Source: Clostridia bacterium (GTDB taxonomy: Bacteria > Bacillota > Clostridia > Oscillospirales > CAG-272). From it: a stretch of 64,000 nt of DNA. A program made the translations under genes and the position numbers. Location: positions 1 through 64,000 of the forward strand of contig JAFQEC010000029.1 in NCBI GenBank assembly GCA_017415805.1. The letters run 5' to 3'. Under the pieces are notes generated by a model, which saw nothing but the letters and a program-made list of their open reading frames with translations, was not told the DNA's origin and ran no database searches. Positions 50,296 to 52,411 of this stretch are shown piece by piece; within the stretch, counting starts at the first letter, position 1; each line of letters opens with the position of its first letter.

Positions 50296-50324
50296 TTGAC
50301 AAACGCACCGACTTGTGATACAAT
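50296..50324 (+). promoter_or_regulatory. Strong sigma-A promoter in a non-coding region
   Basis: TTGACA, 17-bp spacer ending TGA, TACAAT. No credible protein gene follows; the next hairpin-plus-T-run on this strand ends at 50737, so it would make an RNA of about 405 nt. Confidence 0.7.
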
Positions 50325-50335
50325 AAAGCCACAAA

Positions 50336-50422
50336 CAAAAAAGGCGGGCCGCCATGTTAGCGCATGACAGCCCTGCACAGAAGTGGGAAAGCACTCCTAT
50401 ACAACCGGATCACCGGCACCCG
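50336..50422 (-). ncRNA. Candidate small RNA 1 (about 87 nt, two hairpins)
   Basis: Minus-strand unit with its own promoter (50429-50457) and T7-like end (50342-50337). Hairpin A: GGAGTG, loop CTTTCC, CACTTC (50397-50380). Hairpin B: GGGCTGTCATG, loop CGCTAA, CATGGCGGCCC (50373-50346), 11 pairs with two G-U pairs that would be A-C mismatches on the other strand, which supports minus-strand function. A related pair lies at 50565-50640. Type unknown; the pyrimidine-rich loop resembles those of sRNAs that block ribosome sites. Confidence 0.55.
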
Positions 50423-50428
50423 AAGGGT

Positions 50429-50457
50429 ATTATAGCACACTTTTTCGGTTTTCGCAA
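50429..50457 (-). promoter_or_regulatory. Sigma-A promoter of candidate small RNA 1
   Basis: Minus strand TTGCGA, 17-bp spacer ending TGC, TATAAT. Confidence 0.75.
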
Positions 50458-50564
50458 GGGGGATTTTGTTGAATGGGCTTTTTCTGACGCGTTTTTGCGC
50501 CGTGCGTGCTTCTGTGCACCGCGGGGCATTTTTGTTTTTTTCATTGAAGCTCTCCGAACGGAGC

Positions 50565-50640
50565 AAAAAACCGCAGGGCTTTCGGCGTTAGCGCGCCGTG
50601 AGTCCGAATGGGTAGGAAAGTACCCTACAAACCGAGCCGC
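50565..50640 (-). ncRNA. Second copy of the hairpin pair
   Basis: Minus strand: CGGTTTGTA, hairpin GGGTA-CTTTCC-TACCC (50625-50610), hairpin CGGCG-CGCTAA-CGCCG (50598-50583) with an interrupted outer stem, then GCCCTGCGGTTTTTTG. The two hexaloops are identical to copy 1 while the stems differ, the mark of a structured RNA. No clear minus promoter was found, and the outer stem of the second hairpin pairs better on the plus strand, so the working strand of this copy is uncertain. Confidence 0.4.
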
Positions 50641-50693
50641 GACACCGATCTGGCAGATGTTGCGCGCGCGGGGCGTCGGATCGCATAGGTGAT

Positions 50694-50737
50694 GCCGCGG
50701 CAGGGAAGGAGCAATCCTTTTACCTGCGCGGCTTTTT
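50694..50737 (+). terminator. Plus-strand terminator of the non-coding region
   Basis: GCCGCG/CGCGGC, CAGG/CCTG, AAGGA-GCAA-TCCTT stacked stems (GNRA tetraloop), then TTTTTG. Confidence 0.75.
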
Positions 50738-50764
50738 GTTTCGGGGGTGCTTATTGTCTGCCAC

Positions 50765-50788
50765 TCCATGGGCGAAAGCCCGTGGAGT
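50765..50788 (+). other. Hairpin with GAAA tetraloop
   Basis: CTCCATGGGC, GAAA, GCCCGTGGAG: 10 pairs with one U-G. It lies downstream of the terminator, between the non-coding region and the convergent membrane-protein gene. Function unknown. Confidence 0.5.
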
Positions 50789-50808
50789 CTCGGCAATCAA
50801 TGGCACCC

Positions 50809-51081
50809 TCACGGTTCTTTAATATCCCCTCGCTTGCACAGCGCGTCGGTGATCAGCACCGCACCCGTGAGCAGCATGATCGCCGCCACGGGAAATTCCA
50901 GCATCGCGCCAAGCTCGGCGGCGGTGGCGGTGGAAAAGGGCGCACGAAGCGAGACCTCAAACAGCAGTCGCAGTGCCACCGCGAGGATCAACGGCAAACC
51001 CGTGCGTAAAAGGGTGTAGGAAAGGGGCGCAAGAGGGAGGATGCACCCACGATTTGGTATGTAAGAACTATTTTTTCTCAT
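50809..51081 (-). CDS. Small two-helix membrane protein of unknown function
   Basis: 90 residues with two hydrophobic segments (LLRTGLPLILAVALRLLFEV and MLEFPVAAIMLLTGAVLI). The inner ATG at 51081 is preferred: GGGAG lies 9 nt upstream, whereas the ATG two codons earlier is only 3 nt from it. A good promoter precedes it. Family not recognised; a small sporulation or signalling membrane protein is possible but not supported. Confidence 0.6.
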   Translation of the reverse strand: MRKNSSYIPNRGCILPLAPLSYTLLRTGLPLILAVALRLLFEVSLRAPFSTATAAELGAMLEFPVAAIMLLTGAVLITDALCKRGDIKEP

Positions 51082-51473
51082 ATTCATTCACTCCCGTAGA
51101 GTATGCATGGTGCGCGGCGCAGTGTGCGACGCGCGGGGGAAAGCTTCTTTGCCTTCTATTATAACAAACTGAGTGAACAAAAGCAATGTAAAAATATTTC
51201 CGGTTGAAGCAAAGCTTTGGTGTCGGCGCATGAAAGGACGGCTTTTGGCTGCATCCCACCCGTGGCGAAAGGGTGAAACGTACGAATAAATATGCAAAAT
51301 GAAGCAAAATAGGGGATCGTTTCCTCTGTTTTTTTGTTTTTGATGAGCAAGGATCGGCATTTTCCACAAAATGTAAGGCGTGTGCGTATGCTTGCTGTAT
51401 ATTTGTCGGTGCTGGCCGTGATAAGATGGGAGCTGTTGCGTCGCTCATCGCGGCCAAGGAAAGGAAGCAGAGT
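51082..51473. other. Divergent intergenic region
   Basis: Contains the minus-strand promoter at 51158-51186 and its 65-nt leader. From 51187 to 51473 I see no convincing gene, promoter or strong hairpin; the region is AT-rich near 51270-51340. Confidence 0.5.
51158..51186 (-). promoter_or_regulatory. Sigma-A promoter of the small membrane protein gene
   Basis: Minus strand TTGCTT, 17-bp spacer ending TGT, TATAAT. Confidence 0.72.
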
Positions 51474-51955: not shown

Positions 51956-52411
51956 ATGAGATGTCCAAATTGTGGCTTTGCGGACAGCAAAGTCATTGAT
52001 TCCCGCCCTGTTGAGGAGGGCAACAGCATTCGCCGCAGACGCGAGTGCCTTGCGTGCCAGAAGCGCTTTACCACCTTTGAGGTGCTCGAATCGGTGCAGA
52101 TCCTGGTGGTCAAGAAGGATGGAACAAAGGAGATCTTCGATCGCTCCAAAATGCTCTCGGGTATTATGAAGGCGTGCCAGAAGCGCCCCGTCAACGGTGA
52201 GGAGATCGCCACCGAGATCGAGTCTGAGCTGCAAAACGGACTGGTGCAGGAGATCACCTCGCGCCAGATCGGCGAGATGATCATGAACAAGCTCAAGCAG
52301 CGCGACGACGTGGCGTACGTGCGCTTTGCCTCGGTTTACCGTGAGTTCAAGGATCTGGACACCTTTCTCACCGAGCTCAAGGAGCTCATGGACAGCAACG
52401 AACGACAGTAA
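51956..52411 (+). CDS. nrdR: Transcriptional repressor NrdR
   Basis: 151 residues. N-terminal zinc ribbon (MRCPNCGF ... RRRECLACQKRFTTFE) and an ATP-cone domain (VVKKDGTKEIFDRSKMLSGI ... VAYVRFASVYREFKD). It binds dATP/ATP and NrdR boxes to repress ribonucleotide reductase genes, which are not in this window. Ends at a bidirectional terminator. Confidence 0.97.
   Translation: MRCPNCGFADSKVIDSRPVEEGNSIRRRRECLACQKRFTTFEVLESVQILVVKKDGTKEIFDRSKMLSGIMKACQKRPVNGEEIATEIESELQNGLVQEITSRQIGEMIMNKLKQRDDVAYVRFASVYREFKDLDTFLTELKELMDSNERQ

Follow-up and report, generated by a model that had tools for sequence, protein, structure and literature searches.

The minus strand of a clostridial contig carries two hairpin modules, copy 1 and, ~220 nt upstream of it on the same strand, copy 2, which have identical loops on different stems, copy 2 having the weaker hairpins. 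This arrangement raises the question of whether the modules are two small RNAs (sRNAs) or an sRNA and something that it recognizes. The stretch of DNA studied, referred to here as the window, comprises 64,000 nt of Clostridia bacterium GCA_017415805.1 (contig JAFQEC010000029.1, positions 1 to 64,000 of the forward strand), and the locus sits in it beside nrdR and enolase.

Copy 1 is a predicted structured sRNA with its own promoter

A preliminary description had placed both modules on the minus strand, and the promoter, hairpins, loops, and T run that it listed were located in the sequence (Table 1). Its complete unit of about 87 nt corresponds to copy 1, a predicted RNA of ~85 nt with promoter and terminator; the 5' GCCGG-UGAU-CCGGU hairpin of copy 1 had been overlooked. 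The predicted fold of copy 1 has a free energy of -46.1 kcal/mol (z = -5.4), and covariance models R1 and R2 score it at 104.3 and 91.3 bits, respectively. As the conserved pairs of the homologs include 55 G-U versus 2 A-C, copy 1 folds on the sRNA strand. The -36 position and the 17-nt spacing of the sRNA promoter are kept in nearly all homologs.

Table 1. Features of the locus in the window and genes found behind related leaders
Feature	Location	Strand	Basis
Opposing promoter of RNA II, TTGACA-17-TACAAT	50296..50324	+	Conserved in related loci
Putative leader RNA (RNA II): sRNA complement, target hairpins, attenuator, conserved 3' hairpin	50331..50815	+	Alignment of 15 loci
sRNA (copy 1), ~85 nt, three hairpins and terminator	50337..50421	-	Covariance matches, 38-sequence alignment
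Hairpin B of sRNA, 11 bp, loop CGCTAA (50362-50357), terminator hairpin, then T6 (50342-50337)	50346..50373	-	Fold
Hairpin A of sRNA, 12 bp, loop CTTTCC (50391-50386)	50374..50403	-	Fold; conserved G-U pairs
5' hairpin GCCGG-UGAU-CCGGU	50404..50417	-	Fold
sRNA promoter TTGCGA-17-TATAAT	50429..50457	-	Sequence; TTGCGA 50457-50452, TATAAT 50434-50429
Copy 2, probable target hairpins on RNA II	50583..50625	+	Loop identity with copy 1
Putative attenuator, intrinsic terminator CCGCGGCAGG...CCTGCGCGG-CTTTTTGTTT	50697..50740	+	Terminator hairpin at matching place in related leaders
Conserved 3' hairpin of leader	50742..50808	+	Alignment, sequence
Gene behind leader: excisionase-like HTH protein and integrase	L130		
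Gene behind leader: integrase	L119		
Gene behind leader: TnpB-like protein	L122		
Genes behind leader: secreted LRR, RCC1, fibronectin, SLH proteins	L140, L142, L145, L146		
Gene behind leader: ATPase-like protein	L120		Weak match
Gene behind leader: ~230-aa protein family	L114 (4592-5293), L118, L125 (2303-2968)		

The sRNA belongs to a family absent from Rfam

The preliminary description had proposed an undescribed sRNA family, and the database search agrees with this. At the gathering score of Rfam 15 only a tRNA elsewhere in the window was matched, with none for the sRNA region, for which E values of up to 10 returned only unrelated chance matches. No description of the family was found in the open-access literature. 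The copy 1 sRNA belongs to a family that is absent from Rfam.

A DNA search located two copies of the sRNA unit in genome G007, of the same genus, and one in genome G027, of another genus. A first covariance model, built from four sequences and applied with a cutoff of E up to 0.001, gave matches, some of them weak, in 29 of the 395 genomes belonging to the window's family, and no genome had more than seven copies. A second model gave matches in 18 of the 394 genomes of the order at E up to 0.0001, with up to nine copies per genome and with the single-contig genome G700 included. In the rest of the class matches were few, at 3 of 341 genomes, of which two had already been found. An exact pattern run against named genomes identified 36 stretches. 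With one exception, a Micrococcus record that had a score near background, they belong to metagenome-assembled genomes of Clostridia or Oscillospiraceae, many of them of deer hindgut origin. Model matches of 22 to 28 bits in other genomes (L028 to L039) were left out as weak. Viral contigs searched with two patterns gave no match, nor did plasmids searched with one related leader or phages searched with another. The loci are drawn mostly from metagenome assemblies, and several are found at the ends of contigs; these contig-end copies prompted consideration of an IS110-like or similar transposon guide RNA, which was rejected as the flanking genes differ and there is no constant transposase. The sRNA locus adjoins nrdR both in the window (51956-52411, plus strand) and at L047 in genome G378, which is of another genus, and the loops of the two loci differ.

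The covariance search also returned the homologs with covarying stems for which the preliminary description had called. Across 38 aligned sequences, 98.3% of cells pair and 18 of 27 pairs are changed on both sides, a number reached in 0 of 500 shuffles. All 10 modeled pairs of hairpin B are doubly changed somewhere in this alignment, and one pair of the 5' hairpin has a C-G to U-A double change in 9 of 37 sequences.

Loops are hypervariable and matched within each locus

Read on the minus strand, copy 2 comprises GGGTA-CTTTCC-TACCC (loop at 50620-50615) and CGGCG-CGCTAA-CGCCG (loop at 50593-50588); on the plus strand its loops read GGAAAG and TTAGCG. The compensatory change around shared loops that had been claimed for the two copies is borne out, their stems being different and their loops identical. 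Across the family, stems are conserved and loops differ between loci, even between copies in one genome. Outside the loops, the nine copies of genome G573 agree at 94%; within them, agreement drops to 42%, and every loop pair is distinct. At 20 of 20 window-type loci, the sRNA loops were best matched by copy 2 of their own locus, and 0 of 100,000 permutations reached the observed sum (the permutation tests, here and below, take loci as exchangeable and ignore the tree). The loop identity first noticed in the window is real and far beyond chance, and own-locus matching leads us to conclude that the two copies evolve in step, as a pair linked by their loops. At several tandem or contig-end loci, no second module could be identified.

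Other arrangements of modules were also encountered. In genome G203, two tandem sRNAs are present at each of two loci (L056, 216-593, and L057, 4755-5132), with combinations of loops A and B that vary as if shuffled (CCACG with TTGCTG or TTCCAG; CCTAG with TTCCAG or TTGCAG). L129 carries two sRNAs 1 kb apart (557-640 and 1603-1686) with identical loops (CTTAGTC and GCTGCAAC) and compensating stem changes, each facing a different gene. At L134 (5574-5664), a second module that shares the long loop (TGCTTGCCACA) and TTGCCG with the first is located ~360 nt downstream of it, not upstream.

Copy 2 is probably the target of the copy 1 sRNA

The initial reading of the locus as two tandem sRNAs holds for copy 1 and is not supported for copy 2, for which only a sister lineage has a full sRNA. 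In the window and in window-type loci, no promoter on the minus strand was found for copy 2, its T run is not conserved among relatives, and its predicted minus-strand fold is of ordinary stability (z about -0.6 to -1.0). A same-strand sRNA pair in the window was rejected, as the second promoter is absent. The stems of copy 2 have no strand preference, G-U counts being 14 versus 13 by strand, and its hairpins taken together are marginally more stable on the opposite-strand RNA, RNA II (P = 0.07). What speaks for copy 2 acting on RNA II is the set of promoters, the leader terminator, and the downstream genes (see below); copy 2 is probably the target of the copy 1 sRNA, on the opposite-strand RNA.

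Copy 2 of the sister lineage (L061, L062, L063, and L068) is preceded at the usual distance by a promoter of its own and includes a closing stem and a T run; the covariance model scores it clearly at L061 (39 bits) and weakly at L063 and L068 (~18 bits). With this promoter and terminator, copy 2 looks like the older sRNA gene. A duplication of the sRNA gene apparently took place in the window's lineage, whereupon copy 2 may have lost its promoter, the antisense RNA being then supplied by copy 1, and the old copy would have stayed only as a target. We infer this order, duplication followed by promoter loss and a target role, from comparison of the sequences. Recognition in this lineage would rest on the loops, because copy 2 would have kept only its target role.

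A promoter facing the sRNA precedes a putative leader with a terminator

Just past the 3' end of the sRNA lies a promoter that faces it, and TTGACA-17-TATAAT or a close variant, with diverged spacers, is present at this place in nearly all loci, including distant ones. Window-type leaders have a strong terminator hairpin followed by a T run; among distant leaders, a terminator in the sense orientation was identified in 28 of 33 versus 4 of 33 in the reverse orientation, and the terminator scan found none in 5 of 33. In some relatives, as in the window, the plus-strand form of the 3' leader hairpin is capped by a GAAA tetraloop.

At many loci, genes with ribosome sites lie behind the leader (Table 1). 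At L008, L044, L048, L050, and L053, an open reading frame of 119 to 148 aa with a ribosome site starts ~510 nt from the RNA II start, and the small proteins behind window-type leaders gave nothing significant in Pfam or NCBIfam. Similarly, the ~230-aa proteins behind L114, L118, and L125, which share 32 to 43% identity with the L114 member, had no Pfam or NCBIfam match. In the window, no convincing gene with a good start was found close behind the leader on the plus strand. A 92-aa membrane-like open reading frame on the minus strand (50809-51087), with a TATAAT promoter near 51160, faces the leader end; no homolog of it was found in related loci.

An arm of the probable target hairpin is complementary to the terminator

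The terminator of window-type leaders has a 5' arm (GUGGGGU) complementary to the 3' arm of their target hairpin A (usually UACCCCAC), and a change in one arm is matched in the other (CCUCAC with GUGAGG in L048 and L049; CCCUGC with GCAGGG in L009 and L010). This anti-terminator pairing came to -13.0 kcal/mol with the locus' own terminator versus -11.7 kcal/mol with foreign ones (401 of 100,000 permutations; three loci whose T run was missed by the pattern were omitted). At distant loci, with the arm of the direct target hairpin, the values were -11.4 versus -9.5 kcal/mol (0 of 100,000 permutations). In the window itself the pairing is weak (-6.0 kcal/mol), and as there is also no gene downstream, the window's own locus may be a decaying or noncoding member.

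The locus is read as a chromosomal antisense attenuator

The reading that we favor, with a probability of about 0.7, is that the locus is a chromosomal antisense-RNA transcription attenuator. The features of this class that were found are a structured sRNA convergent to a 5' leader, with both promoters conserved at nearly all loci; complementary sRNA and leader loops (20 of 20 window-type loci, with direct complements elsewhere); an intrinsic terminator in the leader ahead of the gene (window-type leaders and 28 of 33 distant ones); and, family-wide but weak in the window, an anti-terminator arm mutually exclusive with the terminator. The sequence supports the sRNA structure and its covariation, both promoters, the loop identity, the terminator, and the locus-specific anti-terminator complementarity; transcription of the two RNAs, their binding, and the direction of the effect, repression, are deduced from these elements.

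In the proposed mechanism, the sRNA would be made on the minus strand from its own promoter, and the facing promoter would make RNA II on the plus strand. RNA II would carry a pair of target hairpins, with loops complementary to those of the sRNA, and, downstream of them, an intrinsic terminator; the 5' arm of this terminator could pair instead with one arm of target hairpin A to give an anti-terminator. Kissing of the target loops by the sRNA would hold this arm, the terminator would form, and transcription would stop before the downstream gene. Diversification of the loops locus by locus would allow each sRNA to recognize its own leader. In the distant families that were examined, the sRNA seems to have its direct complement as target.

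Several other readings of these loci were weighed. The antisense layout, with ribosome sites near the leader end, would also suit an sRNA that blocks translation of the leader or directs RNase III cleavage of the duplex, the terminator being a side feature, and pSK41 RNAI does act on translation with two stem-loops (PMC5703833). However, most leaders have intrinsic terminators, mostly in the sense orientation, and the anti-terminator arm covaries with each of them, which makes this reading unlikely. We give still less credence to both modules acting from the minus strand, as two sRNAs or an sRNA and a decoy whose loops bind one common third partner. The sister-lineage copy 2, with its own minus-strand promoter and terminator, and the absence of strand preference in the G-U counts of copy 2 stems would be compatible with that arrangement, but window-type loci have no minus-strand promoter for copy 2, the opposing promoter is conserved, a leader terminator is present, and the loops are too variable for a fixed partner.

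LhrC and RsaE sRNAs have exposed pyrimidine-rich loops, and LhrC is multicopy. The preliminary description had likened the modules to this type, noting that their loops are conserved and that C/U-rich loops often pair with ribosome sites. The sRNA does have its own promoter and terminator and exposed loops, of which loop A is often C/U-rich in the window's family. Nevertheless, a trans-acting family that binds ribosome sites of many mRNAs is improbable: LhrC and RsaE have conserved loops and trans targets, whereas the loops here are hypervariable between loci and between paralogs in one genome and would pair with a leader in cis. A matching cis module at window-type loci and an opposing promoter at nearly all loci point instead to a convergent antisense RNA on an opposite-strand leader. 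Least probable of all is a type I toxin-antitoxin system, in which RNA II would encode a toxin and the sRNA would be the antitoxin. Such systems have convergent promoters and antisense overlap, as these loci do, but the products here are long and diverse (integrase, TnpB-like, secreted LRR/SLH proteins, and uncharacterized proteins of 119 to 234 aa), and a recurrent short membrane peptide was not seen among them.

Relation to plasmid antisense systems

The attenuator reading has its closest counterpart in plasmid pT181, where binding of the 87-nt RNAI to the repC leader releases the terminator from a pre-emptor arm, so that transcription stops (PMC5703833). The proposed device would share with pT181 RNAI/repC a counter-transcribed antisense RNA, kissing hairpins, a leader terminator just before the gene, and a pre-emptor arm able, as long as no antisense RNA is present, to base-pair with the terminator's 5' arm (PMC5703833, PMC3753616). 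By analogy, the same attenuation logic would apply to the sRNA and RNA II. Unlike pT181, the family here is chromosomal, with many loci per genome and hypervariable paired loops, and in the window's lineage there is a separate target module that shares mainly the loops. The ctRNA_pT181 family of Rfam did not match the sRNA region, either at the gathering score or among hits with E values of up to 10, and no rep gene was found among the genes examined behind related leaders.

In the Inc18 plasmid pIP501, RNAIII is antisense to the ~320-nt repR leader, with convergent promoters and a poly-T attenuator upstream of the gene (PMC5703833). The convergent promoters, the antisense leader layout, and the attenuator ahead of the gene are common to pIP501 and the family here; however, pIP501 is a plasmid-borne copy control system that includes CopR. 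The ~83-nt antisense RNAI of pSK41, with two stem-loops that are both needed and for which full pairing is unnecessary (PMC5703833), resembles the sRNA in size and stem-loops, but it acts on translation in plasmid copy control. No Rfam match to any plasmid antisense RNA family was found in the window.

Implications

The proposed device works like a plasmid antisense attenuator; what is new is that it is chromosomal and multicopy, that its paired loops are hypervariable, and that a second target is matched to the sRNA through the loops. More tentatively, and at a little below even odds, the loci may form a natural, order-wide family of mutually orthogonal chromosomal antisense attenuators, in which loop pairs diversify so that copies coexist and sRNA and target are matched by loops alone. 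Such a family would offer dozens of apparently orthogonal natural pairs, up to nine per genome, with a recognition code concentrated in two loops, and the matched loop changes would be a record of RNA-RNA specificity evolving. Because circuits of this kind sense gene copy number, they could, if the reading is true, give dosage or immunity control of mobile and surface-protein genes. As leaders precede integrases, a TnpB-like gene, and surface-repeat proteins, they may set the control of mobile and surface genes in Clostridia.
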